Assembly (NCBI GenBank): GCA_963575645.1
Contig: OY754465.1
Span: 43,426,401 to 43,490,400 of the forward strand
Direction of reading: 5' to 3'
DNA: 64,000 bases
DNA from: Xanthostigma xanthostigma
Taxonomy: Eukaryota > Arthropoda > Insecta > Raphidioptera > Raphidiidae
The translations under genes were made by a program, and so were the position numbers. Of the stretch, positions 2,454-51,000 are shown piece by piece. The notes under the pieces are model-generated. The model did no database searches and was not told where the DNA came from. It was given only the letters and a program-made list of their open reading frames with translations. Every line of letters starts with the position of its first letter. Within the stretch, counting starts at the first letter, position 1.

Positions 2454-2688
2454 ACAGTCGAGCCCATGTGTTTTCAACACCATCTATTTTCAACTGATTT
2501 TATTCACGTATTTTCAAGTTTATAGTTCCTATTTCTAACGCAAAGTGTCTCTTCCTATATAACCTCAAATTAATAACGGTTTTATCGATCTATAACTGCC
2601 ACGAAGTGAAGATGAAGGAGAAGTTGAAAATACAAAAATACAGGAGTCGATTGGTCCTGACAGGTTGAAAACACATGAATTCTACTGT
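2454..2688. mobile_element. MITE with ACAGT...ACTGT termini
   Basis: The left end ACAGTCGAGCCCATGTGTTT and the right end, read in reverse (ACAGTAGAATTCATGTGTTT), share about 20 of 24 bases. The target duplication is unclear. The ends recall mariner/piggyBac-like DNA elements, which is inference. Confidence 0.5.
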
Positions 2689-14579: not shown

Positions 14580-17500
14580 ATGGATTATTTGGGTGAGATG
14601 ATAGCGTTGGGAGTCGATAGTATAATATTAGTAATGTGTATAAAACAATATCTTAAAAATAGGAATGATGAAGAAAAAATTAAGGTACATAACCTCAGTA
14701 ATTTTTCGTATATTAATATTTCTGTAGATATAGTTTAAAAAATGTTGTAATAACTAATATTTTGTTTATTCAGTTAGCTCCAATGTTGGATATAAACGAC
14801 CAGCTGAATGACTTGGTATTAACAAGCCCTGATAATAAATTAGATTATGTGTCTTTTCGAGGCATTGTTAAACCGCTTGGAAGTCCTCTCCGAAGCTTAA
14901 ATAATCCCAAAGTAACGGGAGTGGTGCAAAGATTATGTATAAAGGAACATGTAATACAGAGAACGAGTGCTGGCTTTTGGTCGGACCAAGAACGAACAAT
15001 ACAAGAAGTTTTTAATTCAGCACCTTTCTTGCTGAAGTCTAGGGGTGGCCAAATTGAAGTAGTCGACGCTTTATCTGCAGACATGTTAGGTGACGGTTAT
15101 TTTATTTTAAATGTATTTTTAGTAAAGCAAACGACTACAAGTTGTGTGTGAAATATATCAAATTATTTTTTTTTATTGTGACAAAAACGTACTATTTTAT
15201 TTTGATGTCCGTTAATATATCATTCTTTTTGACGTGATAACGTCTTATAAATTGATGAAACACCGGCTTCATGCACGAAAAAGTGTCACGTTCCGCCTGA
15301 CCTTCGAGCGGAATACGTTATCACGTAAAACTATCGTCCGTAAACCGACTTTACAGACAACCAATTTTTTATACGTCAAGCTCTCGCCCGTTCTAATTTT
15401 TACAATGTACAAATTAACTAGCTTGCAAATTCAGAACTCATAAAAAAATTACTATTTTTGTTTATTGATGTTTTATAGATCTGGAAGTAATATCTGATCA
15501 CTTTGAACCCAGTGTTCCGAGTTTCATGGACCATGTGTGGGGTTTCTTCGCTGGCGTCAGACAGCGCGGTTTACAAAGCACCGAAGAAATGCTTCGAACA
15601 GGCACTCTGATAACAGCTATTGGGGAATTAGCTGGTTCGAAAGGAGACCATTCGATACATTTACAACCTCCATCAGATGGAAAAGGACCGTTCTATTTGA
15701 CGACAATGCCGGTACCAGTTTTAATTAAGAAGATCAATGAAAAAAGGAGAAGCTACAAGTAATTATAGACATGTAAATCTCCCAAAATAATAGATTTCTC
15801 AAATTTATTTAATAATAGCAGTACCATTACCCAATTTAGACTAGAGACCGGTAGCAATAAAACTATTCAGTAGGGTACGTGGCTTTTAAATTTGACTGAG
15901 TACCTACTCGATTTTTTAACTGAGTCCTTTTCGTATTATATGCAGTTATTGATACACTTTTGTCTGCGACTGTATACCTCATACATCCAACTCGTATGTG
16001 ATCTTACCATTTACATAAAATAAATTCTTTCAAAAACGCAGTTAAAAAAAAAGAAAAAATACTTACAGGTGGTTGTCAGTCGTATTTGGGAGCATAGGCT
16101 TGTTATTAGTCACATTGATCGTTCGACGGTACGTAGCCGATCGTAAACGGAAGTTAGAATTGGAAATCGAAAGACGAAGACTTGAGGTGACTAGACGAGA
16201 ACGACGCTGCAGAGTACGGAGTTCTGTTACTACTGAAGAGGATAGATGTTGTGTAGTTTGCAGGGATAATCCTCGTGAGGTATTATAACATTTACTTTCA
16301 CAAGATGTAAACCTGTTATTTATCTTAATTATCTTGCTGAACATTGACGAATTCAGAAATTTTTCTGGGCGGCAATTTGATAATCACAAAATTTAGTCAG
16401 GAATAAATATATTTGCAAGACGGCAAACGTTTATTGTCTTGTACGAGACGCGAGCTTATAGGAAAATTCGAAAGAAAAACAGAAAGTAATGTAGAAAAGA
16501 AACGAAACGGTTGATTTATGAGTCAAAATTTTTTTATTGTAGGAAGACTACGTTTCGACACCTGTTTTGGTGTCTTCCTCAGGTCTTTAATTAAAAGACA
16601 TTAATTGACCATCACATCACAAAATCTAAATTCATAGTATGAATTTAGATTTTGGTCAATTAATGTCTTTTAATTAAAGACCTGAGGAAGACACCAAAAC
16701 AGGTGTCGAAACGTAGTCTTCCTACAATAAAAAAATTTTGACTCATAAATCAACCGTTTCGTTTCTTTTCTATATATACAATTGAGTGATCATGATTATT
16801 AAAGAAAGTAATGTAAATGACGCGCTCAGAATTTTTGAATTGGGAAATACAAGTAATTCGAACAATTATGCAAAATTTCTTCATTACTCAATAAACGATC
16901 TTTGCGAAAAAGTGTTCTAGATTTGAAAACACTTAACTTGAAGGCGAAAAATTTCAGAATCATTAGGTCAAAATGTCTAATACGTATACAAAATTTAGTC
17001 AATATTGAATAATTATTTGTTAAATGGCAAATATGGGCGACATCAAATATTTTCATCTAAATTAACATTGAAAAACGTTACTGGATCAGCCATTGCGTCA
17101 GTAAATGCCCAAAACTTTTGAGTAACCATGGCGACGTGAAAACGATGAAAACCTGTATGGAATACTAGGCACTATTTTTGTATACTATATTGTCGAGCTA
17201 CTCGTTTTGTTGCTACTCCTTGTTGCACTCATAATTTGTATATGTTCAGAATTGATTTTGAACAAGCTGTATGGGCTGTGTGCACGAAGCCTATTAGCGC
17301 TGCTAGTGGGTAATAGAGAATTATTGAACTATTCAATAAATAAAATTATCGACCAATTTTTCAGACAATACATTAACAAAAAATGTATTAATTATATTTT
17401 TTGTTAATATATTGTCTGAAAAATTGGTCGATAATTTTATTTATTGAAGAGTTCTAATCAGACGATTTGAATTATTGAACTAACTTTTTATGGAAATCGC

Positions 17501-18025
17501 GACATGTTTCTATGGTGATAATTCAAAAACTTTAGTTGGCCATGATGTGTTAAAAAAAAATATAATAAGGAAAACTGATGTTAATTTGTTTACACTGACA
17601 GCGGAACGTGAAATTAGGGCGCCAATGGTATTTATTTTACTTAAATCGCCATCAGCGCAACAGCCTGGAACACAACAAGCATTTCCAGATCGCTTAGTTT
17701 TCCTATGTTTTCTTTGTAATTAAAAAACTTTATAAAATTATAACTACTTTCACTTTTAATAAACATTGCTCACTGACATATGGAAAATTGGAGATCGAAG
17801 TTTCCCCTAGTGCTCACCACAAACGCTCGCATCGAAAAATTTGTAACTCCGCCTCCGTGTACATAGCCCATAGGTTTTGTAATAATTTTATTTGTCTTTT
17901 TATAGATGATATTGCTACCGTGCGGTCACGTATGTTTGTGTGAAGATTGTGTCGAAGGCATAAATAATACATGTCCAGTATGTAGATCAGCTGTACAGAC
18001 AAAAGCCGCTGCCTATATTTCATAA
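14580..18025 (+). CDS. MUL1: MUL1/MAPL-like mitochondrial RING E3 ligase, complete, 5 exons
   Basis: Exons 14580-14684, 14774-15089, 15479-15758, 16069-16279 and 17906-18025 join in phase to 343 aa (human MUL1 is 352). Residues 5-22 form a hydrophobic first membrane segment. Residues of about 36-230 match the intermembrane-space BAM/GIDE domain, with the family signatures GVVQRL, STEEMLRTG and IGELAGS. A second membrane segment lies at about 235-253 (VVFGSIGLLLVTLIV), followed by a basic stretch. The C-terminal RING reads C295, C298, C310, H312, C316, C319, C327, C330. It is split between the last two exons. Known role: a ubiquitin/SUMO ligase anchored in the mitochondrial outer membrane, acting on fission and fusion factors and PINK1/Parkin-independent quality control. 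The last intron (16280-17905) is stretched by at least two mobile elements. The gene is tail-to-tail with CTU1, whose stop is 274 bp beyond this one. Confidence 0.93.
15225..15370 (-). mobile_element. Family W element, reverse copy 5
   Basis: A short form in the opposite orientation, TTTTTGACGTGATAACG to ACAGACAACCAATTTTTT. It lies in the second MUL1 intron, 110 bp before exon 3. Confidence 0.8.
16494..16770. mobile_element. Penelope-like inverted repeat with paired hammerhead-like motifs
   Basis: Arms of about 120 bp run from AAAAGAAACGAAACGGTTGA to its complement. Each arm contains CCTGAGGAAGACACC, then a short loop, then GGTGTCGAAACG (16682-16714 on plus; 16550-16581 on minus). In Penelope-like elements this signature is known both as conserved sequence and as a reported hammerhead ribozyme core. 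It sits in the last MUL1 intron. No reverse-transcriptase frame is present. Confidence 0.6.
17270..17872 (+). mobile_element. Family T element, copy 1, with nested insertion
   Basis: Ends TATGGGCTGTGTGCACGAAG and the inverse of CTCCGTGTACATAGCCCATA pair. The body matches 62314-62843 read in reverse (shared words AAATCGCGACATGTTTCTAT, GTGCTCACCACAAACGCTCG). A 110-bp palindrome (17335-17444) interrupts it and is absent from the second copy. The element ends 33 bp before the splice acceptor of MUL1 exon 5. It has no coding capacity. Confidence 0.7.
17335..17444. mobile_element. Nested Penelope-like palindrome fragment
   Basis: AAATTATCGACCAATTTTTC at the left pairs with GAAAAATTGGTCGATAATTT at the right. 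The same arm occurs at 49165-49227 beside a CTGAAGAAG...CGAAACG motif, which links it to the Penelope-like family. Confidence 0.6.
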
Positions 18026-18146
18026 CACCAATTATTAATTATAGAATGTATATCGCTAGTGAATGTACATAATATACAAATTTGTTGTAATCATCATATA
18101 TAATAATTATAGTTATTATTTTTGTTATTTACAATTCTTTAAACTA

Positions 18147-18152
18147 TTTATT
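18147..18152 (-). terminator. Poly(A) signal AATAAA for CTU1
   Basis: A canonical hexamer lies on the minus strand about 150 bases past the CTU1 stop. It is within the tail-to-tail gap with MUL1, about 120 bases past the MUL1 stop, so the two 3' ends probably overlap. Confidence 0.45.
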
Positions 18153-18298
18153 TCATTATTAGCTATTGCTTACAACTTCACTCGCGTGAACGCTGATTTC
18201 ATCTATAGATTCGCTCATATGTCACGTTCATTTTTAGTTATCAATACTTTTATCAGTTTCATATTGTGCTGGTGCAAACTTGATATTCGCTATAAGGG

Positions 18299-21200
18299 TT
18301 AACTAAATGCATCAGTTTCGTCATCCGAATATTCTGCGTTCAGTTGTTTAAGGAAACGAATCAAAGCAAATTTACTACGATCGTCGGAGACACAGTTACA
18401 TTTATGTGAGCAGTTATTACAGTTAGGTTTCCATTCTAAGTATTTATGATCAAATTTATTTTGATTAACTTTCTTTGTAATGTTTTTTTCAGTTACAGAG
18501 ATAACCAAATTATTTGACTGTTTTTTGGTGGCCATTTCTAAATATTTATGATCAACTTTATTTTGTTTGACATCATTTATAACGTTTTTTTCTTTTGCTG
18601 AAACAACTGAATTACTTGGTTGCTTTTCGAGACTCACTCCATTGGTTTTTATGGTATTACTTTTATTTTGTTTGTGTTTTTTTACCGTCGGTTGTTTTGG
18701 TTTATTTATTAACATGTCTTCTATGTCAACCTTTTTAATAGCATTGCTAATTGCAATCACCGACTGTTCATTTTTGGAAGTGCATGGGTTTTGATTTTGG
18801 CAATTTCCACCATTACAGCAGAGTTTCTCAGCATCTTTAACTAATTCATCGGCTAAACGTCGTTTTGAAACACTAGTTTTACCAACTCCAAGTCTCGGTA
18901 AACCTCGATTAAGACCTTCGAGCAAGAAACAAGCCTTGCAAATTTCCTGAGATGATACATAACCACACTTTTGGCAAACCCCAATTTCAGGCATTCGAGC
19001 TGTTTGTTCTACGCGGAGTGATTCACCTGTTAAAATTATTACATATTTAATTATATTACAAATAGAACCAAAAGAGTATAGTTTCAAATTTATCTAAAAA
19101 ATCGAAATCCCACGACTTGGAAACAAATACACAAATAACTCAATCATTTATCAGAAAGGACCGGTGGTAAACATATGAACAAGTGCACCCATTTCCACGA
19201 CGTGGTAAGTATCTACAATACTTGTCAAGTACAGCCGTGATGGCATTCTGACTTAATAAAGAAGTATTTTACCTGAATGTATCAAATCCAAAATAATGGA
19301 AGGTCGGATTCTTTCCAAATCTTTGAGCAGTTCTCGAGCGTGACCTCTGTATGCGTTTGGAGCAAATACGCATTCAGTCGAGAAGTAGAGTAATTTACGG
19401 TGGTACGCATAGAGTACGATTTCTTTTTCGTATGCGTATTTTAACGGTTTCACTCTTGGTACAGCCTCTTCACCTTTCTATTAAAAACAAATTTCGGACT
19501 ATAATACATGAAAGCTCACTTATAATAAGACTTACTGAACCGTTTTGAACGAAATTTTTTAAAATCATAAAGCGTTTATTTGGAACAGTTTTAAGGTATG
19601 TATCACAATCAGAGCTGGGCGGTACTGAGTACAAGTACTTGGAAAAAGTACTTTAAGTACATATTTTTGTACTTTGTATTCCGAGTACTTTTAAAAATTG
19701 TACTTGGTACTTGTACTTGCAACGGTCTGTTGAATGTACTTTCAGCTTGTTTCTAAGTACAAGTACATTAAAATACACTTTTATGAAGAAAGAAGTCTTG
19801 TGTAGAAGTTTTAAAAATTAGGCGTTTTTTTTTAGTTTGCGATTTTTCCGTAAAGAATCGCTACTTTCTTGTGAACATTTCTGGGTACCCTGTTTGTTCC
19901 AAGCAGCCAGCAAACGGTAACGAAAACGTCAACCGCATGCGAAGTAGCTAAAAAGATACTGGAACACGTTTTAGCTATCTGCGCATGATGGTGACGGTTT
20001 CGTTACCGTTTGCTGGCTGCTTGGAACAAACCTATTAGTGCAGGGTTTCTTGAAACATTGCTTTTTGTCTTTATTTAGTTGTTTATTTTTCTATTTTCAG
20101 TATTTTCAATTTTTTGTTTTTGTATTAATTCACATGTAATATAAATAAAATATAATTCATAAAAACATTTTGTGCGTACGTCACTCTCTGTGTATTTTAA
20201 TTTCATAAATAATCGAGCTTGTAGGGTTTGTTTGTAGTTTGTACCACAAAGGTGTACTGAGGCTGGGTGTACCACATTGTGTCCAATGTACTTGCAAAAA
20301 GTACTCGTAAAATCCAAATACTTGTACTCAGTACTTAGTCAAGTACTTTGTACTTATTGGACGAAAATGGAAAGTACTTTGTACTTGGTACTCCAAGTAC
20401 ATTTTCATTGTACTTGGCCCAGCTCTGATCACAATGTGAGGAGGGGATGCAGCTGAATAAAATGAAAAAGAATATAATAATATGATTATTAACCGTAATA
20501 CTAGCAGTGCAGCGTCGCAATCGAGGCAAATCTCCACGTAATACATTCATTAAAACAGTTTCGGCTATATCGTCTGCATTATGGCCAGTTGCAATACAGT
20601 CGGCATTCAACTGTGAAGCTCCACGATCTAGAGCCTGTCTCCGAAAAACTCCGCAAAACGTACAGTTATTCTTGCGGCCAATCTGAAACGCAGTTACGAA
20701 AGCAAATAATTAGGTGATCGGTGTAAACAATGAATTTAGAAGGTACTGTGTTCAGATCTCAGCACAGGTAGATGTAACAACCTTTTTGCTTGTAAAGTTG
20801 ACTTTTCTAGTCATTTTTCCGTTTAAACCAAACAGTTAACAATAAGTTTGAAAATGCAATATAAAGGTGAATAGTGAAATAGTACCAGTGCCAATAATAA
20901 TATTGAGAAATATGTTAAACATCATCGTTAACTAGATATGCCCACAGTTTCGCTCGTGTGATTTTCAGAGTGCGATCAAAGATTAAATTTTTGTCCAAAA
21001 ACAAACATAAGTTCACATAACAAAGCCACAATGTCTGTATCTATTAGCAAATGCATTAGGTTCGTTCCAAGCAGCCGCGAACGGTAATAGAACCGTACAC
21101 AGTCTTGTCACTGCGCAAGACTGATTTGCGCTCTAGCTCAAAAATCGATACTGCGCAAGACAGTCTTGCGCAGTGACAAGACTGTAACGTTTTATTACCG

Positions 21201-22616
21201 TTCGCGGCTGCTTGGAACGAACTTATTATGAGAGGTATTTGGAAAAAAATTCCGTGGCGCAAGGATCAAAAGCAAAGCAGTACTGAATTTTTTACACTTG
21301 CATTTATTACTGACGTTTTGGTACGCTGTAACGCTTTGTATTGTACCATCTTTAGAGTTTTCTCTTGGGTACCAAAACGTCAGTAATAAATGCAAGTGTA
21401 AAAAATTCAGTATTGCGGTGCTTTGATCCTTACGCCACGGAATTTTTTCCAAATATCTCTCATTAATTTCAATGGATCACAATTACTCTATTTATTGAAT
21501 AAAGTCAATTTCAAATGCGTATTGTCAGCAGGGTTTGGCACATCGACCCAAGTTTTATATGTTAAGATATTTTTTTAAGTACCTGAGCAACGATTTCATC
21601 CATTGTCCATCTGTACAAATCTTTATATGATAAAATCTTTAGAGGCATTTCATAGTCATCTCTGTTTTGCTTAACAGTTTCTAGGCTATCGTCACGATAT
21701 CCTGTAAAAAAATTGGTTGTCTGTAAAGTCGGTTTACGGACGATAGTTTTACGTGATAACGTCATAAAGAAACATTGATGAACTCTCTGACGTCACGCGA
21801 GAAGAGAGAGAAATGCGTACAAGCTGACGCTTGGGCCGATCGTGCCTCTCTATCGCTTATACCGCGCTCTCGCTTGCACGCTCAGGCTCAGGCGGAACGT
21901 GACACTTTTTCGTGCCTGCAGCCGGTGTTTCATCAATTTGTAAGACGTTATCACGTCAAAAATTTAGCATAATAGAATAAAAAAAGAAAACGTTAAATTC
22001 GGAACTCTTGTACACAGTACATATTCTACTATTTTTGTGCTTTCGCACGAAATGTGTTCAATGTAAAAATTCAGCCTCGTGCTGTTTCGTCCTAACGATT
22101 TTACAACTACAGCTAAAATATATGGGTACCTGTTATTCCTTCATCAATTGATAATAACAACAATTCGAGTCCATAGTCGTATCTCTGATTAAGCGTTTTC
22201 ATTACATATGCTAAAACAGTTGAATCTTTTCCACCCGAAGCTCCGATAACCACCCGATCACCACGTTTAAACAATTTACCATTGGTGATTGTTTCATGCA
22301 CTTCTGTTTCAAATGCCCAGTAAAAACACTCTTTGCATAAGGCATCTGATGTCTTCGGTCTCTAAAAATGTTAAAATATGAACTTAAACACAAGTTTTTT
22401 ACGTATCAGAAAGCAATGTGTTTGTAAACGGTCATATTAAACGTATTTTTTATCTGTTACGACTTAATGAATTATGATTAAGTTCTTTATGTACTGCACA
22501 ATAAACATACTTCATATTAATACAAAATGTGAAATAATAAATTTTTTATAACCTCAAAGTTGTCTTACTTTTAATATTGCGTTTCTTCCACAATTTGCTG
22601 TACATTTTACAACCAT
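18299..22616 (-). CDS. CTU1: CTU1/NCS6 cytoplasmic tRNA 2-thiolation protein 1, complete, 6 exons, with long C-terminal extension
   Basis: Exons 22616-22569, 22361-22130, 21701-21583, 20682-20494, 19477-19273 and 19026-18299 join in phase to 506 aa. The PP-loop ATPase motif SGGKDST is at residues 58-64. CTFCG (C140, C143), GHNADD and the STEC cysteine (C232) are present. The C-terminal zinc pair is C282/C285 with C294/C297, followed by the family tail motif [13 protein letters not shown]. Known role: with CTU2 it activates U34 of tRNA-Lys, -Glu and -Gln by adenylation and inserts sulfur relayed from URM1, giving the s2 part of mcm5s2U. Two oddities. The N-terminal zinc motif reads CTANC rather than CxxC. 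Residues after about 345 form a Lys/Asn-rich extension, absent from the shorter orthologues I recall, with a 27-residue repeat and a terminal [10 protein letters not shown] cluster. A minus-strand AATAAA lies at 18147-18152. Confidence 0.93.
19610..20427. mobile_element. hAT-type element with perfect 8-bp target duplication and a nested MITE
   Basis: Ends CAGAGCTGGGC and its inverse GCCCAGCTCTG are flanked by identical ATCACAAT at 19602-19609 and 20428-20435. Subterminal regions are built from repeated AAGTACTTGTACTT words. A family G MITE (19892-20031) is inserted inside. It occupies the CTU1 intron between exons 5 and 4. Confidence 0.9.
19892..20031. mobile_element. Family G MITE, copy 2 (nested in hAT)
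   Basis: Inverted ends GTTTGTTCCAAGCAGCCAGC pair with GCTGGCTGCTTGGAACAAAC. Arms continue as AAACGGTAACGAAAACGTC and its near-complement. It inserted after the surrounding hAT element. Confidence 0.85.
21060..21222. mobile_element. Family G MITE, copy 3
   Basis: Ends GTTCGTTCCAAGCAGCCGCG pair with CGCGGCTGCTTGGAACGAAC. The inner part has its own palindrome of CAGTCTTGTCACTGCGCAAG. It abuts another foldback at 21231. CTU1 intron between exons 4 and 3. Confidence 0.85.
21231..21460. mobile_element. Foldback MITE with about 90-bp arms
   Basis: Arms AGAGGTATTTGGAAAAAAAT...TTCCGTGGCG and the inverse CGCCACGGAATTTTTTCC pair. A second conserved block is ACACTTGCATTTATTACTGA. It lies eight bases from the family G element, so two insertions sit side by side. 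Confidence 0.75.
21709..21961 (+). mobile_element. Family W element, long form, copy 6, at a CTU1 splice acceptor
   Basis: Nearly identical to the copy at 12744. On the minus strand its left end (CCAATTTTTTTACAG) forms the pyrimidine tract and branch region directly before CTU1 exon 3 (21701). The exon itself starts eight bases from the element. The family ends elsewhere show the same T-run. Confidence 0.85.
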
Positions 22617-23370
22617 TTTGCGCACATTAATTTAAATCTTCGTAAATAAAAAATCATGCACAAAATTCGGCAATTTTCTATTAACGTTCTATAAAATGGA
22701 AATATCTTTTTTTACTTCAGACATAAGCTAGCTGCTAGGAGTGCTAGGTTAGAAATTTTTAGATTTTGAAACAAAGTACTGTACACTAGTGACATCGGAT
22801 GGAATTTCTTAAAAGCTATTAGTAATTGAATTTTGCTAAAGTAATTTTGACGCATGGACATAGGAATATGTCCATGTTTTGACGACATAACAAAGAGAGA
22901 GACAGTTTATGCATAGACAAGTTTATGTAACAATACGTTAATTCGCCCACCAGCAGTTGAGTTTGAGAGAAATTCTTTTCACGTCACAAAAGTAGATAAA
23001 AAAACGAAAAAAGTGGCGTCTGGTTTAGGTCGATACGTCAATTAGAACCAAAGTTATGGGAGATTTAAAAAGAACGTTTTCCCCCTCTCCTGACGGTTCT
23101 AATTGACCCACCGCGTCCAGCTCCCCATGCAAATAAGGGGTCTTAGAAAATTAAGCTCCTAGCTGCAATGGTTTTTTAAAAAATGGCATTAAATTTTTCA
23201 AAATTTCGCGTACTAAAATGGCGATATCTCGTGAACGGGTTGTCTGATCAGACCTGGTCTGGAACGAGCTTACGCGGATTATTTTTCTCTCCAACTTTTG
23301 TTGGAACATTTTTTTTTCCAATTCGGTTTACTTTTAGAAAACGACATTCTAAATTCAATGAGCACACCAG

Positions 23371-23392
23371 GAGAGAGAGAGAGAGAGAGAGA
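23371..23392 (+). repeat. (GA)n microsatellite
   Basis: About 11 GA units, directly before a copy of the short GACGCT motif. Confidence 0.9.
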
Positions 23393-23393
23393 C

Positions 23394-23433
23394 TGTAAAT
23401 TATAGACGCTCAGCATCTGAGGTCATCAGCGTC
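23394..23433 (+). repeat. Short hairpin motif M, copy 1
   Basis: TGTAAATTATAGACGCTCAG followed by CATCTGAGGTCATCAGCGTC. GACGCT and AGCGTC are inverted. Other copies: 28913, 43201 (reverse), 50420. Confidence 0.75.
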
Positions 23434-24018
23434 GCACACACCAGATCAACATTGCAAAAAAGGACTTTTTCATGGTTACACCTTTGAATTTTGTCAAGAT
23501 ACAAGCAAAAAACTGATGACACATACTTATAGTTTTTAACTATTTTTTTAAAGTTTTGGAACAAGTTCCAGGCATCGCACAAAGGTGCAATTATAACATA
23601 TTGTGTATCATACTTATATAAATGTTCCCTCGCACCATTTTGCGATTTTGTGGATATGTTTAGGGTCAAATCATCTTCATTTTACTGGCCTACTTAGGGT
23701 TTGTTTGGACAAAATTGGAATGTTTCAGATCTTTTTAAATTCAATATGCTGATAGAAAATGACGCGCTGAATAAAACGAACACATAATTTGGACTGATCA
23801 CTTACCGTTCATATCGCCGTGAGTGTGAAAATAAAGTATGCCAAAGGTCTTCTTTCCAATGTTTTTGTTTTACATACAACATTAAATTTGCAACAGAACA
23901 CTATATTTATTAATAAGTTATAATATTTTAACAAGTTATTATCAATAGAACTTCGAGTTCTTAGTAACGACCATTCAAACATAAATTAAAAGAATATAAA
24001 TGTATATTCGTTCAATTT

Positions 24019-24024
24019 TTTATT
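24019..24024 (-). terminator. Poly(A) signal AATAAA for DNAH2
   Basis: A canonical hexamer lies on the minus strand 28 bases after the dynein stop codon, predicting a 3' UTR of only some 50 bases. More AATAAA words occur further down (about 23905), so longer ends are possible. Confidence 0.45.
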
Positions 24025-24051
24025 CACTACGTGTAAACGTAAGCGTAGTAT

Positions 24052-36000: not shown

Positions 36001-36044
36001 CTGATGTCGAATTTGGGGGAACATGGAACCTCTAGTTCTATTAC
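24052..36044 (-). CDS. DNAH2: DNAH2 module 4: AAA5, AAA6 and C-terminal domain
   Basis: Exons 36044-35820, 35374-34990, 34518-34334, 33237-33038, 32708-32395, 31855-31549, 29556-29340, 29194-29003, 28552-28368, 27868-27646, 27204-26937, 25929-25775, 25161-24912 and 24206-24052. AAA5 shows [18 protein letters not shown] and [16 protein letters not shown]6 shows [28 protein letters not shown] and [13 protein letters not shown]. The C-terminal domain has [50 protein letters not shown] and the final [23 protein letters not shown]. Exon phases alternate normally and no stop or frameshift interrupts the frame. One weak donor (GTCTCA after 32395) is accepted because the joined codon and protein match the family. 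Confidence 0.93.
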
Positions 36045-39000: not shown

Positions 39001-42000
39001 TAGTCTATTTAAGATTACCAATTTTCTGAGAAATAATTGTCGACGGTAGAAAGGCACGCTCTTACCTGTTTTAATATCATGACGGCTTCCATGACCATTT
39101 CGACTTTTTGTGGGGGTCGACCATAAGATCTGACTTCTGTTATGTCTTTCTTATTGAGCGAGTCGAGTGCTTGGATAGCCGCATCGAGTGCCGGCATTGC
39201 CACAGCCAAATCCGCTTCGGCGGCACTGGCTAACTTTTTGCAAGCTACTTCCTCCTCACCAATTTTCACGCTACGTATTGCGACAGATTTCTGAAAAGTG
39301 AATTTTCAATATGCAATTAAAAGGATAATTATCCAAAATATTTCTGATTAGAATTTTTAGATAAATAGAAAATGAAAATTTTTGGTATAATTTCTTAAAG
39401 AAACAAAGGTACCTTTTGTTCATCCGCTTCCTTTGTTTGGTTGGTAATGACGACCATCACCTCATCACATTCTTGTTGAAATTCGTTAATTTTAATTTGA
39501 GCTTCTTCCAGTTCAATCGACATTATTTCAACTTTCGCTTGTGTTTCATCAATTTTCGATAAGCCGTTACGTAATTTGTTTGCCGCTAAGGCCTTTTCGT
39601 TTCTTTTTTGGTCTAACATGCTAAAAAATCAACAGCGTTTTAGAATGTTTTTGAGAATTTGGAATTGGATTAAATAAAAAATTTGTATCTAACCGGATGT
39701 ATCCGGCTACCAATTCAAGATAGTTTGTAGGAGTAACATAATTGTGGCGTTTCATTTCCGCTTCCATCCGACGTGAACATTCGCAGACTGAACTGTGCAC
39801 ATCAGAAAATATGATCGCCACAGCCTCCCTCAATCGATCTTGAGTGGATACTAATACAGAATCTTTGCGTTTCACCTATGCATTTGAAGTGAAAAGAAAG
39901 CCAACATTAATTGCGGAGTTCAGAACAACCCAGAGAAAAACAAAGTGAAGAATGTGTGTAGTGGAAAGAACTATTTGTCCTTAGAGAAATATCATTGTAG
40001 AAGTAATTCCATGTTCACATCCTATTGAAACCATACTTTTAATAGCCCAGTCAGTATGGGTTTGAGGTTGGAGGTCACATGACATAAGCGGCCGTTTGGG
40101 GTTTAATGAAGATGGTAATTCTTGAGTGTTCTGACAAGTCACCGGTAAAATCGAACATCAGCGTTTGAGAATAGAATAGAAGAATATAAATATCTTTATT
40201 TAAAATTCCAATGGAATGTTATAGCGTCAAGTAGGTACATTAAAATTACACAAAGAAAATTTGAATAAAAAGATTTATATTAATATTTAAAATCGTTAAC
40301 TGAGTATAAACAACATGATTGCAATCTTTTCTTTAATTTAGATTTAAATTTAGAATATGGCATTGTAGTTAAATGTGCCGGTAGTGTGTTGTGTATTCGT
40401 AGCGCCGCACACTCAGGACTATTGAAAAGTAGTGATAAATTACACTTAGGTAAAATGATTTTCTTATTGTGACGTGTTTGATAATTATGTTTAGTACAAG
40501 AAAGAAAAAATCTGTTTTTATGTTTTTGTATATAGCACAAAGAAAAATATATGTGCATTGAAGGAACAGTTAAGATGTGATGTTTCACAAAATACTCCTT
40601 ACAACTATCTCGAAAGCCAAGATTAAAAATAGTTCTAATGGCTTTTTTCTGCAGCAAAAAAATTCTATTGATCGCGGAGGAGCTACAGCCCCAAAACATG
40701 ATTCCATATTTGACGTGTTGGAAGATGCATAATAAGTAGTCAGGTCTGAATTAAGATCATAGCAACTATGATGTATTTTTCGTAGCGCAAATAAAGATCT
40801 TGCTAGCTTAGAACTTAAATTGGAAATGTGTTCAGTCCAGTTTAGGGTATCGGATTCCTATTGGTGCTACATAACGGCGTTTTAAAGTACAAAAATGTCC
40901 TGTCTTTTATGTTTTCTTCGCTTTGAATGAGTCCTTCTTCAAATTAAAAACGGCCGCTCACATCTTGTTACTTCCGATCTCAAACTATATATACAGATCG
41001 GGGGTCATAAATAGATTTTGAAAACAGATTTTATCGATCTAAATGTTATGATTTGTATATCATGTTTATTATTTATTTTAATATCATAGTACAAACCAAC
41101 ACTTCACCAGTAATAGTTGCCACAAAATTGACATTGGCAAGATATTTGTTGGCAACTTCCAACAGTGCATTTTTCGGCCATTCGAGGAACCAATCAATGG
41201 TTGTGCAATTGATAAGCGCTGGATATTGACGCAGTCTGTTGCGGAATGCGTCTCCAATAGGGCTCATGCAAAGAACTACATGCAAATTTCCCCGGACCCT
41301 TTCGATCAAAAATGCATACAATGCCTCTGATGTTGGCATTATGTTTGCTTTCGCTGCTGCGTCTTGCAAATTGTTTTTTATCTAAAATGTTTAGATCTAT
41401 AATAGTCTTTGATTTACACTTCGCGGTACTTTTCGGTTAAAATTAGGGATTCGCACAAGATGATTCTTGAAAATTTGAGATCGAGAAAGCAACACACACT
41501 ATATTAAATATTATATACGGCAACGGAAGCGTCATCTATTGAATACAGAATCATACGTTTAAAGCAACACACGCTATACTAAATATTTTACGGCAGTGGA
41601 AGCGCCATCAGTTGAACGTAACAGCAACACACGCAAACCATACTGAGCCACTGCAATGTGTGACTGGGTACAGCTAGTAATAGATAAATAAACAAGTAAG
41701 AGACTGATGGGATGGAACATTATTTATGAAAGTGTAGTTTTTACTATTATAGGTCATTAATTTGTTTTTTCAACGACATTAGACTGGTCCTGCATATACA
41801 AAGATCGTAATTATTATATGATCACAATCTGACGTCATAGATTTTCTGACAATGGGCTATGCAACTCAGAATTAATGTGTCTTAAGTTCAAAGATTGAAT
41901 CGTAGTTTACTGTATAAGTACCTCTTCAAATTCATCAGGTTTATATAGATTAGCAACCTCGCCACTGCTCAGCATATTGTTGACAATTTCCAGAAAACTT

Positions 42001-45000
42001 TCGTCGGTGACCTGAGTGTCGTTAAACAAAAACGTTGTGGCTTTTCGTTCGACTCCAGTCATTTTGTACAGTACTTTCAGATCCTCTTTGAATTCGGCAA
42101 CTCGGTAGTTCTTACTAACTTCCACTTGAAATGTAATGTATTCACACATATAAGCCGATATTCGAGATAACGACTGCCTACCACTTCCACCTGTGGACAA
42201 TAACGGCAAATGACGCCTGCAATGATCTAAACTGTCTATCTTATAATGGTAATAAAAAAAAAGAAATTTCCGTTGGTGTTGGGTTTGGCGGAAATTTTAT
42301 TTTAATTCAAGCGTAACCAAGAAAAAATGTCCTGTATTTTAGGTTTAATTATCGATTGGCGATATTGGTATAGTGTATTAAGTTGACCCAACCTTTTTCG
42401 AGTGTTGCTTGCACATAATATGTCTTATTCGCCATGGGAACTGATTCTAATGCTTTCTGATGCGAGAAAATAAAAGCTGTGTATATTAAATTTCCTGTAA
42501 CATATTGTGTGTTTATTGTGATGAGTGAAGTAAAGAAAAAAAGTTTATTAAACTATATGATGTGCCACAATGTAAAAAAGACAGTGCGATTCATCCAGCT
42601 TTCAAAAATTTCCCAGTCATAAGAAACTAAACAGAAAATGGTTAAGAGCATTAAAGACGCAATCTGTTACTTCAAGAATACGAATCTGTCATCAACACTT
42701 TAAAAATCCAATTTTTTTCCCATCAGTACCTATTTATTTTTATAGAAGTTTTTACCTTTCTATATATACAATATTTTGTTTTATATTTCTATTATTTATA
42801 TTTATTCGGAGTACATTGAAAAAAAGATTATTCCCTCTCAAAATTTACCAGTGACATTACTCAGTCATCAGTGTAAACAACAGGAATGATAAGTTAATTT
42901 GATGTGCGTGTTGTACTTGAAATGATGATTGACACAGTGCAGCTGTTTGTATGCATTCCATACATTTGTTTCTTTCAAACCATCCACAAAGTGGTTCGCT
43001 TTAAAAACCTGTTCTCCTTCTACTAGAGGTCCTTTAGAATTACCCAATTACTTAATAATATCAGCAATATTTATTTCGAATTATTTATTATTCATTATAA
43101 ATAAATTGTGTCACATTTGCCTTAAAATTAACTACATGTAGACAGCTTTTATTATCTACCACCAGAGAGCGCTAGAATCAGTTCCCATGGCGAATTAACG
43201 TTGACGACCTCAGATGTTGAGCGTCTATAAACTACAGTCTTCTTCAAGTACATGTTCACCTCGAAAGCATCGTCTTTCTTTCTTGGTGTTCCGAGCAGAC
43301 TATTGCATGCCAGCGTGTGTTAATGCGGTGGAAGTACGGGTGCCATGTGGTGGAGGTACGGGTCAGCTTAGCACCACCACAAAGTCGGATAATAAGCCAA
43401 TAATAGTATGAAATTTAAGGGCTATTAAAGGGTTCATTTAATGTCCCTAGTTCAAATTTAGAGCTTTTGCTCTTTTCGTCAAAATCCTTACTTTTCTTTA
43501 ATACGGTGGAAGTGCGGGTCACGTATGGTGGAGGTGCGGGTCACACATGGTGAAAGTAAAAACGAAACATTAGAAATATAATATTTTCACAAATGGGCTA
43601 TAGCTTTTTCATGGGCTATCTAACTGAATAGAAAAAAAATGAAAAATTTGGATGTGGATATCCTACAAAAGCAATCTTTTCAAGATCTTATTTTTTCACC
43701 TCAAATATAGGTACAATTTCGAAAAAATAACTTGTTTCCAGATTTGTCTAGTCAGTTAATTTTATATTCACTTTCCCTGTCACTTGTCAGAGCATTTCGT
43801 GTCAGGTGTTAAAATCAATGCTGGATTTAGAGGTCTGGAGGCTTCGGTGCAACAAAGGAGTAGAGGCCCCCTGGCCTCAAATTATTTTCCAAATAAAATG
43901 TACAATTTTTTCAATCGAGTTTTCCAATAAGTAATTTATTGTGAAACCAGGTATAGAGCTTTTATTACTTAACAAACATATAAATATAATCGGAAATAAG
44001 AATTATCTGAAATTAAATTTTAGCGTTAACGAAGGTAAACGGTAAAACGCGGAAAAAATATCAAAGGAAAAGTTGTTTACTAGTGTTTACTAATCTGAAT
44101 TTGAATTTTTTTCCGAAGTCTCTATTGTGGGGGCTCCTCTTTTGTGGAGGTCCCGGATCTGTAGCCCCGGTTGCCCTCCCCTAAATCCGGTCCTGGTTAA
44201 AATTTTATGACTAAAAGCACTATCTCGGAAAATTTTCATTTCTAGGCTAGTTGTCAAAAAAAGATGGAAATTATAAGTCGACAATTCATAATAACTGTAA
44301 TATTTTTGTAATAAAACCTGTTACACTTTAATATTTCTTATTAATTATGTTCCGTAAAATTTTTGATTTTTTAATTTTTTAATCAATTTGAATGAACACA
44401 AAAATCACAACTTATTGATTTAAGATAAATGTTGATACGATGACGGCTGTGATCTTGATAAGGAAAAAAATAACGGGTGAAAAGCCAATTTAGAGTTATA
44501 GAATTTTTATTTTTATAGTATCGTAGACGTTCCGCTAACGTTTGTTAGCATCCTCAGGACCTAAGGATAATAGAAATATGCACAATATAAGTAAAATAAA
44601 TAGCAGAATACATGAACCGAAATAACAAAAGTACAAAAATCAATTCTTACCAACTAAGATATAAAAATTTAACTTTTAGTATTATTTTACATTTATACAT
44701 GTTTTATGAATTCTTCATTACAACAATATAGGTGTATAGATACAACAATAGGTGTAGTATATAGGACAGTCTTTCAACGTTTATTACAGTATTTTATGAA
44801 AAATATTTTATTCGGATGAGATTTATAGTATTATGTAACTGTTAGTAAATGATGTAATTGAACCACGAGGCAAAAATTGTAAGATAAATAGTATTAATCT
44901 AAAATAAGTTAAATGGGGAAATAAATTTTACGTCAAAAAACAATGAAATAAAAGCTAAATATTAATATTTCTTTTCAGTGACAATCAGAAGTCAATAAGT

Positions 45001-48000
45001 TGATAATAGATATGACTGAGATTAGCAATATCTGTTCTGAATTTTATAGAGTTAGTGTTATTTTTAATATAACACATTTCTAAGAATAACCGTTTACTGA
45101 GATTACTTTCCGTGTGTAAAATGGTGGTGTTTTCAAAATCAAACTGATGGTTGTTTGAGAGGCTGTGTTGCACTAATGACGTTAGCGAAACGTCGACGAT
45201 ACTATAAAAATAAAAATTCTATAACTCTAAATTGGCTTTTCACCCGTTATTTTTTTCCTTATTAAGATAAATGGCCTGCTACAAGTATAATAAATTAATA
45301 ACTAAGTATTTATCTAAATATTTGAAAAAAAAACAAGAAGGCTTTAATCAGGAGATCAAGTTCAAGTGTAGCGGCGGACCGATATCTGTCGCATGAACCA
45401 AAATGGCGTCACAGACGTTCATGGCTTACATGTGTGTAGTGTCTGGGAAGTCAAACAACTTTAGTAACTATGTCGAAAACAGGTGGAAAGAACCGAAGTT
45501 TTCGCAGAAAACGGTCCGTTTCGAAACACGGTAAGCATAGGAAGCTAGGTCTCCTGGTTACAACCTTCTTGAAAAAAAGAACTAAAGAAGTAAACTAACC
45601 GACTCCCACCAGCAGCATATTGCCACGCGGTTGCGAAATGACTCGAACGATACGGCAAATATGCACGATCGCGTCTCTGAACAAAACAATGTCAAGTGGA
45701 ACCACGCCTGGCGACACGTTGTATTCGTCCATCTGCAATTCGATATATCTACGCAACGCTGCTAAATCGGCCAATTCTTCGTATATGTAGTAAGGATTTA
45801 CGAAATGCCCGAAGATTGGACAACTTTTCGATGGACATAGGGCATGGAATGTCAAGTCGAAATATTTACCCAGCTGCTCATTGATTTGACTTACAAACCA
45901 ATCGCGGTCACTAGAAATGAACAGAACAGTGAAATTCTTCTTGGACTTGATGCTCTTATCCAGTTGAAACTAGACTTCAGGAATCGCAGTTAATACCGCA
46001 TACATTTAGTTTAGTTTTCAACTAGGTTAGGTATTAAGACGTAAGACAGACACGTTCTTTCCGATTTGCTGAAATATCTTTGAAAATAATCTTTAAATAC
46101 ATTAACAAAAAAAAGACATAAAAAACAGTCAAATGCGTTTTTAGGCCCGCACATGGTAGATTAGATTAGATAGAGGGTATGAGGCACGCCTCGTCAACAC
46201 CGCGACCTTATAGGCCCCACTCACGATCAAACTTTATGCCACAGTTCAGTGTTCAAACTTATAGTTCAGTGAAGCATGATAATGTGTGGGACAAATAAAC
46301 ACTGAAACCAACACTGAAGTCAGGCATGAACACATCAAATTCATCTTGATTTTTGAACGACTTTTAGTTCAGTGTTCAAGTAAACTGCTGTGTGTGTGGG
46401 TTTTTTTCAGTTCAGTTTTTGGAGTTCTGTGTTTTGTACAACCAGAAGCCAAAAATCTCAATGTTGCTGCAAGTCTTTATTGTGCAGAAAAAGATTTTCG
46501 CATATTTGTGTCCTGGTTTTAATAAATAGGGTAACTAATTCCAGTAAATAATTGTAAGTTAATTCATCCATTCGTAAATAATTATTCCAATCAAGCGGTT
46601 CAAGATGTAATTCATTAATCAAATAAACATGACTTCTTGAATCACGCATTTCTAACAAATTTTTCACCCATATTCTTCTTTTTTTTCTTATTTCCCTGTT
46701 CCCTGTTTTAAATACAATCCCATAGCTATGAACAGCCAATCCTCACCATTTAAATAACTCATTTAGTTCTTATTAATTATCTATAGTGTAATATTATAGT
46801 ATGTATAATATATTATTTTATATACCTATCTATACTCGACGAGTGTATGCCAACAACTGAACCAAACTGAACACAAAAATTTTTAAAAAATGAGCAGTTT
46901 GCATGAACTGTGTGTGGTACCAGTCAGTCTTTCGATTAATCGGGCAAACTTCACTGAACACTGAACTGTGGCATGAAGTTTGATCGTGAGTGGGGCCTAT
47001 TAGTAGATCTATTGTGTGGCTCTGACTTGTTTATTCCTAAGGCTTTTGAAAAAGCCCTGAATTGTTCTGAAATCTGTATCCCAAACTAGATCAGAAGTTG
47101 GGAATAAATTGTTGAGGTGACGGAGTTTTCGTATCATGACTGCTTCACATTTGCAAAGCAAATGCTCCGATGTTTCAGGAGCCTCCAAACAGAAGCGGCA
47201 TGACATGGTGTCCATTACACCAATTTTATTAAGGTGATACCTCAATGGGCAGTGACCTGTGAAGAGCCCGGAAATAATTCTGAGCTCAGTTTTTCTTAAG
47301 CGTAAAAGTTTTTCCGCTTTATCGTTATTAATTTTAATAAAGGTTTTCGCTTGGCGAAGACCTTGCGTATTGTTCCAGGACATGGAGTGTTGTTTCTTTT
47401 CCCATGAGGCAAGAGTAGTTTTAATATAGTATTTTGATGTGCCGAAATAAGGCTCCATTCCTATAAAGGGTGTTTTTGAACCCTTTTTAGCTAAACTATC
47501 GGCAACTTCATTGTCTTGATGGCCCTCGAATTCCGGGACTGCACATGGTAACACTGAATTTAGTTATTTCTAAATTGTTCATATATACCAATTTTGCTAC
47601 AGTGTTTGTTATAATTATCATTGAAAGTATCAATTAAAGGTTACATTCAAGAATTTTCTCAGACATTATGGATCAATAGTTCAGAAATTAGAGAGGGGAT
47701 GCTTTGATAACGACATTGAAAGCAAATATCTAGTGGCTGAAGGGTTGAAATCGAGATGTCCTTTTTGTTGGATTTTAGGGAACCTATATCTAAAGAGATC
47801 CTACTCAGTGGGGTAATAGTCCAAGAAACGGCTGCAGAAAATGTGTCATCATAAGGTGGACGAACGAAAAAATTAGAGATGATATTTAAGACCATAATTA
47901 AGAAAGATCGCTAAGGTTGCCTGCGAAAATCCTGCCGAAACAATGTTTTTTTAATTTGTTTATCAGTTAATAGACCATTGAAGTTAGCTTTTGACAAGGA

Positions 48001-51000
48001 CAAAATTAATAACAGAAAACGAATGGTGAGGAAAGGAAGAAACTGCCGTCAGAAATACAGAAACTAAAAATTCAAATGCGTAAAAGGCCGGAGGGCTGTG
48101 GGGGGTGCATTTTAGGGGTCAAACGCGGCTTTTCGTTATTTCCGGCGAAAGTTGACCTCCAATCGAAAACTGTTGTATGGCAATGCTGTAGGTATTAAAA
48201 GGATCTACATTTTTTATGAATATAACTTTTTCACATAACCTTAAAGATTAAAAGAAATAATGAAAAAACCGTGTTTTTCGTTTTTAATTTTTTTTCTCCT
48301 GCAAATTACAGCTTATTCAGGACATAGAAAGGTAAGTCTCCTGAAAATTTTATGAAAAAAAATCATTTTTGCAGAAGAAAAAAATTAAAAACGAAAAACA
48401 CGTTTTTTTCAATATTTCTTTTAATCTTCCCTTCCTTATCATTCGTTTTCTGTTATTAATTTTGTCCTTGTCAAAAGCTAACTTCACTGGTCTATTAACT
48501 GATAAACAAATTAAAAAAACATTGTTTCCGCAGGATTTTCGCAGGCAACCTTAGCGATCTTTCTTAATTATGGTCTTAACTATCATCTCTAATTTTTTCG
48601 TTCGTCCACCTTATGACGACACATTTTCTGCAGCCGTCTCTTGGACTATAAGTGAAAAAAAAGTTTAGTAAAGTCTATATTCCATTAATAAACGTTTCAA
48701 TACTTTTCATCGATGAGCCGATCGTAAAACACACGGAAACACTCGTGAACCCATAAACGCAGGAACGCCTGCTTGGTGCTCTGAAAATCTTTATTGCTGC
48801 GCAGTAGACCTTGAAATACTTTTGATATATCTCGCAAGTTGAACAAATAATGCATTTTGGCAGGCGTAGGAAGCATTTTTACAATCACAATATTGTATAA
48901 GTCAATTGTGGCTTCTGTCAAGGTTTTACCTGTTAAAAACAATACAACTTTCAAAAATTTAAAAGTAAAATTATCTTTAAACAAATCTTTGATTAACGTC
49001 TGATTAGAACTCTTCAATAAATAAAATAATCGACAATATTTTGATACTAATTAATTATTTTGAAAGAATTTTGTTTAAAGCGAATTAGAAATTAAATATT
49101 AATTATTTTTTATATTCTTTAGATCCGTTCTGAAGAAGATCCAAATCCGGATCGAAACGTTAATGTATTAATTATATTTTTTGTTAATATATTGTCTGAA
49201 AAATTGGTCGAAAATTTTATTTATTAAAATTATCTTTGTTTTTTCTACCCCCCATAAAATCCCTGCATGTGTACAGGCATGTAAAGTTACCAATTATGCA
49301 CTAGTGTAGTAAAATAAAACAAAAGTGGTCGTGCTATACCAATTCCATAATAGGTACCTAAATCACTGTAATTTTTTTATAACCTATTAGAAGTGACGTT
49401 TGTTCAAAAGTGAACTGTCAAAATTTTTGAACATGAAGTGACAACCAGCTATTTTAGAGGAGGTACTTGCAAAAATACTATGTATATCTCGTGCGTATTG
49501 GTAATACGGCTCGTGTGACTGTTAAAACTTGCTGACGTTTGTTTTAAACATAATGTCACAACTCGCCGTAATATAACGCATTATGCGCTAGATATGCAAT
49601 TATAATGTACAAACCTATAACTTTAACTTCATCATCAAATTCTAACAGTTGCTGTGATAATAACGAGCCAAAAATTCGATCGATAGTAGGTTTAGAAGGA
49701 AACGTCATGTTAATAACATTAAAGCGACTCAACAAGCGGTCAGATATCAAAGTACGACCACCCCCTGGCGGGCCCATGGCAGCCATCAACTGCATATCCT
49801 GTGAATGACAAATTAAAATTTTTAGAAAAAAAAGATCATTGTGTATTTGTTGAGTATGTGAATGGATTTGAAAATAAATGGAGTTGGACATATTTCACTT
49901 CGTTAACGCCACTGCTTCTTCTATAATACGACCACGCCGCAACCCTACGTTTTATTGATGCGTTCATGAAGTCTGTAGCCAGGAGACTCAGCTCGAGCAC
50001 AGCGGCGGATCGATATGAACCGATATGGCGTTGACTACTGAGTAACGCATACACGTTCATGGCTTACATGTGTGTAGTGTCTGCGAAGTTAAACAACTTT
50101 GGTAACTATGGCGAAAACAGGAGGTTTTCCAAGGTAGTGATAACAGCGCCATCTCGCCTGCTTTAGAAAACGGTACGTCTCGAAACACGGCAAGCATAGA
50201 AAGCTAGGTCTCCTGGTTACAGACTTCGTGGATGCGTTATCCATTTTGCGTTACCAAGGTTTCTCTTATATATTTCTCCGCCGTTGAATCATTTTCCCCT
50301 TAATTTTGGACTACCTATATTTTCCTGCCGTTCACTTAAAAAAACGCACAGAACAAATATTGTTAGTGTGGAGATTTCGTAACTATTTAATATATTAATC
50401 TTGAATGAATGATTTAAGTAATAGACACTCGACAATTGAGGTTATAAGCGTCTATTAAAAGTATTTGTGTACCTTAACGTTCTTTATGGTCTGTTTTTCT
50501 CTATCGTACCAGAAACCGTAATCGATCCATTGTCTCAGCAGTTCTAGCGGCGGTTGCGATCCGTATGTGTCTTTGGCAGGCATATTCAGGTCGTCCAGAA
50601 AACTGATCAGCTTCTTGCCACCAACGGGGGTATAAACACCTTTCGTACGTTTCTCTAGACGACTTTCAATCGTATCTTGAACATTGTTTGATGTAGTCTA
50701 CGAAAATAGTTCTTAATTAGTGACTTAAAGAGACTGAGCTAGCAAACTGTCAACCCTCGGAAGGATTACGGTGGGTATCTCAACTAACAACACTTGCTGT
50801 AAGAACATTTAAGGACAGTGAACACGTAAAAGAAAGGCTTCAAGACTTCAAATAAATTAACGTATTTTAGAAGATTTACGTCGAAAGTGTGCCATATCGT
50901 TCTTAATCGTTTTAATATTTCGTTACTACAACGTCTTCATAAATATTCAAAAAAGATAATTCTAATTTTATGAGGATTTAACGTCAACCGACAAACCTGT

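Follow-up and report, generated by a model that had tools for sequence, protein, structure and literature searches.

What purpose is served by a hairpin that recurs with fixed flanks and changing stems in the remnants of Penelope-like elements (PLEs)? The question is raised by a stretch of 64,000 nucleotides from the raphidiopteran insect Xanthostigma xanthostigma (contig OY754465.1, positions 43,426,401 to 43,490,400), the whole of which is called the window herein. An earlier note, made from the letters alone, had proposed that these hairpins are relics of hammerhead ribozymes from several PLE lineages. The role of PLE hammerheads has been described as unknown (PMC7761336). The present analysis supports, at the level of sequence, the assignment of the hairpins as minimal type-I hammerhead cores of the PLE variant. 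The overall reading, held with a probability of about 0.75, is that of a PLE hammerhead that would work as a dimer through the palindrome ACGU, in an element with two start sites of reverse transcription, and whose cut RNA would be copied in some insertion events. A pile-up of genomic 5' ends was seen where the cut is predicted. It is confined to a single base in one subfamily (G05) and weaker in another (W), and would constitute natural evidence that the ribozyme cuts and that the cut RNA is copied into DNA.

Hammerhead cores in the window and across the genome

The four copies described by the earlier note are all present: the pattern CTGARGA-N(12-24)-GRAACG is matched four times in the window, while 100 dinucleotide shuffles averaged 0.06 matches and never gave more than 1. 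The stem II sequences differ as described (GACACC/GGTGTC, GCTAAC/GTTAGC, and GATCC/GGATC), and the copy at 44528 does carry GGAAC (A13G); as it has lost stem I too, it is predicted to be dead. The bare textbook core CTGANGA...GAAA occurs 5 times versus 3.45 expected, which is not above chance; what stands above chance in the window is the longer GAAACG taken together with stem II, not the textbook core by itself. In a second scan, requiring the exact core and a stem II of at least 4 bp, 3 hits were obtained in the window versus none in 40 Markov sequences. Allowing up to one mismatch gave 5 hits versus a Markov mean of 0.15 and a maximum of 1 (40 sequences), the two additional hits being the GGAAC copy and a match at 39598 that is likely a chance hit. 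A single extra base (A or T) stands between core A9 and stem II in 4/4 window copies.

The assembly from which the window was taken (623,323,696 bases, 623 Mb, in 28 contigs) contains 9941 + 10002 motif copies versus 145 + 114 for the backward control. The fold was studied in the window and 68 loci, namely 8 loci and 60 further stretches in genome order, with the last 8 listed and one apparent simple repeat left out; hits were scored if the 5' core was complete, GAAACG had no more than one mismatch, and stem II was 3 bp or longer. Stem II reaches 4 bp or more in 81 of the 83 hits, and these 81 copies, many of them closely related to each other, comprise 30 distinct stem II strings. With CUGANGA required and one mismatch allowed in GAAACG, the latter is exact in 75/81 copies. 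Base 16.1 is T in all 81, and position 17 is T in 57, C in 16, A in 8, and G in none, nor is G found there in any of the 30 distinct stem II strings. One extra base follows A9 in 80/81 copies and is always A or T, the first base being A in 57 and T in 24 of the 81.

Base pairing was counted in 17 rows picked by eye across lineages, some of which are still related (the GATCC and GAAAATA sets). Stem I, on which the rows were not chosen, is paired in 83.8% of the cells, with 4/4 pairs changed on both sides, and its register begins exactly one base (H17) after ACGU. Stem II is 100% paired, with 3/4 pairs changed on both sides, a percentage that is not independent because the hits were pre-selected on stem II. 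The whole structure is 91.9% paired versus 26–49% when both helices are slid by 1–3 columns and 55.5% in shuffles. As judged from these exchanges, stem I and stem II are real helices. A lack of pairing conservation, which the earlier note had named as a result that would count against its reading, is not seen; pairing is conserved in the genome copies. Among 82 core matches in viral contigs, taken as an unrelated control, stem II of at least 4 bp was found in 1, stem I of at least 4 bp in 2, and both in 0; these matches look like chance and were rejected as hammerheads.

A stable stem III with a loop is not present in these copies, as the earlier note had surmised: GAA is followed by ACGU and one base, and then by stem I. 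Because stem III consists of the palindrome ACGU only, cleavage would need two RNAs. In one further lineage, represented by a palindromic insertion in L009, the two arms (2282-2309(−) and 2607-2634(+)) each carry CTGATGA, and ACAU where the others have ACGU.

The element and its two start sites

Elements with open frames were found in a tandem PLE array (G000 C3:18461357-18468643), in which two copies with open frames of 888 amino acids are followed by an inverted partial unit at the end. The unit period is about 3042 bp (3042 by match spacing, 3043 by self-match), and these units with open frames suggest recent PLE activity. A GIY-YIG domain lies near the C-terminal end of the 888-amino-acid frame (PF01541, E = 2.3e-4, 21.8 bits, just below the curated 22.6). 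No Pfam reverse transcriptase match was obtained in this frame at E up to 0.01, and a YVDD motif is seen by eye; a PDB sequence search with the same frame returned only 2 weak matches, at E 0.75 and 0.9, neither of them taken as a relative. The endonuclease end at locus 2 of the window (P0001) corresponds to the C-terminal end of this protein. Counting the one in the window, 150 of its matches across the genome were scored, from 1927 first-look candidates; a Pfam search of this short end alone gave nothing. In L069, which is part of the C3 array, the hammerhead core lies just upstream of the open 888-amino-acid frame. In this lineage the core overlaps an ATG whose frame reaches a stop after 15 codons, and lineages with AAG replacing ATG have no ATG at the core. 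The coding signature that the earlier note had considered as an alternative is thus not evident in the intact element read, no synonymous-site test having been made. Its proposal of hammerhead cores in Penelope-like remnants of several lineages is supported by the endonuclease end at locus 2, the PLE-type ends, the target-site duplications (TSDs), and the covarying stems I and II.

Pseudo-long terminal repeats (pLTRs) in tandem or inverted order, a tail, and a short TSD are all found in this family. In the tail-anchored family, an opposite arm lies at most 1.3 kb upstream in at least 68/119 arms, a lower bound as many loci are just 1 kb long. TSDs of at least 10 identical nucleotides flank 26/41 inverted-arm insertions versus 5/236 mismatched flank pairs. 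The outer arm ends in the same family were scored as site A, or as site B about 31 nucleotides beyond. Of 43 arm pairs, 33 combine A with B, 3 are A/A, none is B/B, and 7 have an intermediate end, so that A+B accounts for 33/36 unambiguous pairs (p = 6e-8 against independence). This near-obligate rule argues against self-priming or fold-back of one cDNA and thereby separates two-primer insertion from self-priming; it is in keeping with a break at which each side primes a cDNA of its own. In L074, L086, L100, L102, and L106, the arms meet by eye at self-complementary centres (CCGG of stem II, CAATATATTG, CAGCTG), like annealed cDNA ends. An impression that the tail-bearing arm is the shorter one (roughly 19 vs 10 by eye) was not firm and is not claimed.

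Genomic 5' ends at the predicted cut

If the hammerhead cuts RNA that is then reverse transcribed, insertions should begin at the cut. Local-alignment maps of 5' ends in the sampled loci proved too noisy for old copies, with clusters at +7/+8 coming from diverged copies; exact genome-wide counts were therefore used. A 5' end was counted where the exact consensus runs from a given position on and the three preceding bases are all non-consensus. A first, longer cut-site pattern (14 matches, control 0) was replaced by a shorter one. Two subfamilies were counted: W, which unites two near types (W3 and G14), and G05, which has another sequence past the cut.

In G05, 51 places in 47 insertions begin at the cut, compared with 3 at +1, 4 at +4 (in 3 loci, two of which look like a small deletion), and 1 at −4, with controls of 0; the difference between the cut and +1 gives p = 3e-10 on raw counts. 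In W, 71 places begin at the cut (backward control 4), 26 at +1 (control 2), 1 at −4, and 11 at −8. Longer upstream patterns lose more to mutation, and the counts were corrected for this with an assumed 8% loss per base, together with the chance of the triplet. The corrected values are 111 at the cut, 8 at +1, 11 at +4, and 5 at −4 for G05, and 190 at the cut, 5 at −4, and 57 at −8 for W. The cut-site spike thus stands out cleanly in G05 and less strongly in W.

Contexts were read by eye for part of these places. In G05 the reading covered 8 of the 51 cut places and no other position; all 8 are genuine, and judging by their CGG or TGG triplets 6 others among the 51 resemble internal deletions. 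In W, 21 of the 30 cut places read, 20 of the 30 having been picked for triplets other than AAA, are genuine arm starts, and the single place at −4 is genuine as well. Two single-arm insertions run from the cut to a start site between TSDs (L193/L199 with 11 bp, and L211 with 13 bp and one extra base); single-arm insertions with other ends also occur (L032 at −65). Five hammerhead copies (L204, L206, L209, L213, and L214) carry an internal deletion that follows stem II, or G12-A13, and ends exactly at the cut; this could reflect a template jump at the cut RNA end, or slippage at AA repeats.

The pile-up suggests that the reverse transcriptase sometimes copies cut RNA, in a minor share of events. 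A cut-site footprint of 5' ends looks new, as no such report was found in the literature searched, which lay mostly outside subscription papers. It makes the question of cleavage testable in any PLE-rich genome.

Proposed mechanism and its alternatives

The simplest account of these data would be that the ribozyme works and that part of the RNA is cut by it before being reverse transcribed. The active fold would be built by two RNA copies, joined through ACGU paired with ACGU. The PLE protein would copy the RNA from the two start sites, whose places about 31 nucleotides apart and downstream of the hammerhead are seen in the insertions, and would often do so once per side of a staggered break, so that the insertion becomes a palindrome whose tail is longer on one side. 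Some of the RNA would already have been cut by the hammerhead, and the cDNA would then run off exactly at the cut, as suggested by the 5'-end pile-up at that base. Three parts of this account are inferred, namely cleavage, the dependence on two RNAs, and what the PLE protein does; the proposed enzymology agrees with published work on the Anolis element.

Several points weigh against this account. Stem I reaches 3 bp or more in only 52/81 copies, and in the abundant G05 subfamily it pairs just 1 bp. Rfam gave no hammerhead hit at the gathering score, and for loci 1 and 3 there was still none when E values as high as 10 were accepted. The 26 W ends at +1 are a raw count taken without a reading of contexts, and 13 of them, all with the triplet ACT, may belong to another repeat; corrected by hand, the +1 count is about 85, or 43 without the ACT set, versus 190 at the cut, and the W spike is therefore only about twofold to fourfold over +1. 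The remaining 9 of the 30 W places read are not arm starts, comprising 6 internal changes in a hammerhead copy and 3 places that are not PLE tails. At −8 in W, 8/11 places are genuine ends, 5 of them with one shared GAA microhomology, and three cut-site junctions share GACC|AATG; microhomology thus also shapes junctions. The footprint is a minor share (71 + 51 raw exact matches versus 13952 + 13920 tails), and the small locus sample alone shows a weak pile-up, with 4/70 high-identity ends in 3 nucleotides. In a study of the Poseidon element PAc of Anolis carolinensis, no RNA-seq reads started or ended at the cut, and insertion in vitro did not require cleavage (PMC11167929).

The window copies themselves may well be dead relics without present activity, a view of these copies alone for which the odds are about even. 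The core at locus 2 is broken (A13G, stem I lost), and the inverted arms at locus 1 would pair together in any transcript spanning both; against this stand the cores at loci 1 and 3, intact in sequence, and the tandem elements with open frames that exist in the genome.

For the family as a whole, the hairpin could instead be a signal at which the PLE protein binds or starts, its core being retained for that purpose, and no longer a ribozyme, with the 5' ends at the cut site coming from joining at short homologies. The Anolis insertion, which works with ribozyme-dead RNA (PMC11167929), would agree with such a signal, as would the recurrent junctions with AAT and GAA microhomology, the internal deletions ending at the cut, and the 26 raw W ends at +1. 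However, a signal of this kind predicts no one-base spike of the sort seen in G05, and it predicts neither the avoidance of G at position 17 (0/81) nor a stem I that starts exactly one base past ACGU. It is considered unlikely. Another idea, quite unlikely as well, is that the hammerhead owes its retention chiefly to a role in linking dimers, like a retroviral dimer signal: ACGU paired with ACGU would join two templates for a dimeric PLE protein opening both strands, leading to two-cDNA insertions with one cDNA per start site, and cleavage in the dimer would free a 5' end in part of the events.

It is very improbable that the 5' ends are set by stalling of the reverse transcriptase at the folded hammerhead rather than by cleavage. 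Ends in the stem II region are in line with stalling, yet a stalling enzyme would be expected to stop short of copying stem I, on the downstream side of the cut and not past it, and G05, with almost no stem I (1 bp), has the sharper spike. Least credible of all is the formation of the palindromic insertions by a cDNA that folds back and copies itself, as proposed for rotifer elements in PMC3846280: inverted arms with palindromic centres are in its favour, whereas a mirror copy would give equal outer ends instead of A+B in 33/36 clear pairs and B/B in none, and the TSDs of at least 10 nucleotides that flank 26/41 insertions also speak against it.

Features of the window

Four PLE insertions were identified in the window, all of them with TSDs; the hairpin is found in three and is absent from the fourth (17331-17468). 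Their coordinates are collected in Table 1. The earlier phrase "minimal, dimeric or dead" turns out to be right case by case, since the cores at loci 1 and 3 have a minimal form of the dimer type and the full core at locus 2 is predicted to be dead. Features that the earlier note does not mention are the extra base after A9, the inverted, truncated arm of locus 2, the fourth insertion, and the TSDs at all four insertions.

Table 1. PLE insertions, hammerhead cores, and associated features of the window.
Feature	Position	Strand	Description
Pattern matches	16551-16582(−), 16682-16713(+), 44528-44557(−), 49130-49159(+)		window pattern search
Insertion 1	16494..16802	.	PLE palindrome made of two inverted pLTR ends with outward tails
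Insertion 1 TSD	16481-16493 and 16803-16815		13 bp, AGAAAGTAATGTA
Insertion 1 arms	16489-16611/16653-16775		near-perfect palindrome
Locus 1 core, + arm	16682..16715	+	CUGAGGA, extra A, stem II, GAAACGU, A17
Locus 1, + arm, predicted cut	16715/16716		stem I AAGAC 16677-16681 with GTCTT 16716-16720
Locus 1 core, inverted arm	16549..16582	−	same core; predicted cut 16549/16548
Insertion 2	44432..45261	−	5'-truncated PLE: endonuclease end, pLTR, hammerhead, tail; short inverted arm at 5' side
Insertion 2 TSD	44420-44431 and 45262-45273		12 bp, TTAAGATAAATG
P0001	44988..45179	−	C-terminal 64 codons of PLE endonuclease
Locus 2 full core	44526..44557	−	GGAAC (A13G); stem I lost, first base past cut T, not G
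Insertion 2 inverted arm	45180..45268	+	starts in stem II loop; intact 3' core GAAACGTC, then GACG
Insertion 3	48979..49225	+	short left antisense arm, pLTR, hammerhead, tail
Insertion 3 TSD	48967-48978 and 49226-49237		12 bp, AAAATTATCTTT; direct sequence reading
Locus 3 core	49130..49161	+	CUGAAGA, extra A, stem II, GAAACGU, U17; predicted cut 49161/49162
Insertion 4	17331..17468	.	palindromic, locus-3 family, without hammerhead
Insertion 4 TSD			13 bp, GAATTATTGAACT; direct sequence reading; empty site 62783-62795

The longer tail of insertion 1 is confined to its right end, and the miRNA hits obtained at locus 1 in the Rfam scan were put down to its long palindrome. The inverted arm of locus 2 retains GAAACGTCGACG while its full core is broken. 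At locus 3, stem I is formed by CGTT with AATG (4 bp, one G-U). The empty site and the 13-bp duplication of insertion 4 are revealed by a related repeat at 62678-62837; its right arm starts at 17382, the base matching 49162 (the first past the cut), with two bases of doubt left by an A-run.

The window, with a GC content of 34.6%, has the look of an AT-rich animal genome and contains other long inverted repeats without the motif (7352-8057, 9924-10689, 1131-1708, 47816-48649, and 61037-61325; arms of 119–225 nucleotides, 94–98%). The frames at 47009-47563(−), 40280-40857(−), and 46458-46742(−) are taken, by eye, to resemble pieces of non-LTR retrotransposons and a HARBI1-like transposase. Exons that resemble CTU1, a dynein heavy chain, and, around locus 1, a MUL1-like E3 ligase are likewise seen by eye.

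Relation to known systems

An extra A between A9 and stem II is a feature of the Chrysanthemum chlorotic mottle viroid (+) hammerhead, which shares it with the copies described herein and belongs to a viroid, not to a retroelement. Hammerheads in PLEs and their dimer mode are already established. According to reviews (PMC7761336, PMC6155905, PMC7229834), minimal type-I hammerheads have been described by Cervera and de la Peña (2014) and by Lünse, Weinberg and Breaker (2017) in association with the pseudo-LTRs of PLEs, with no proper helix III and a dimer mode. The present copies agree with those accounts in the first two respects and, as proposed here, in the dimer mode; they differ in numbering about 20,000 in one genome, in the genomic 5' ends at the cut, and perhaps in the constant extra A or T after A9.

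In the Anolis element PAc, the hammerhead lies at the junction of the pLTR and the open reading frame, the cut falling 26 bp downstream of the start codon inside the motif (PMC11167929). Two adjacent start sites of reverse transcription, the same for both strands, were reported, with both DNA strands cut and extended and the "tail" lying between the start sites (PMC11167929). The family described here resembles PAc in the core that overlaps an ATG, the two start sites, and the tail between them. Unlike in PAc, genomic insertions begin at the cut, and one arm of each start site is found in 33/36 clear pairs. Since the Anolis enzyme acts on both strands, it would be expected to yield two cDNAs, one from either side of a break (PMC11167929). 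The hammerhead reading proposed above agrees with the Anolis study in that cutting is not required; it differs in that a trace of cutting is visible here.

The Penelope elements of the rotifer Adineta vaga have inverted pLTRs, mostly head-to-head, a 31-bp tail on one of them, and TSDs of 8–10 bp; the tail was called optional, and self-priming was proposed (PMC3846280). The inverted pLTRs, the tail on one of them, and the short TSDs are shared with the present family. That one member of an inverted pLTR pair bears the tail was thus already known in rotifer elements; the near-obligate character of this arrangement, seen in 33/36 pairs scored, is new here.

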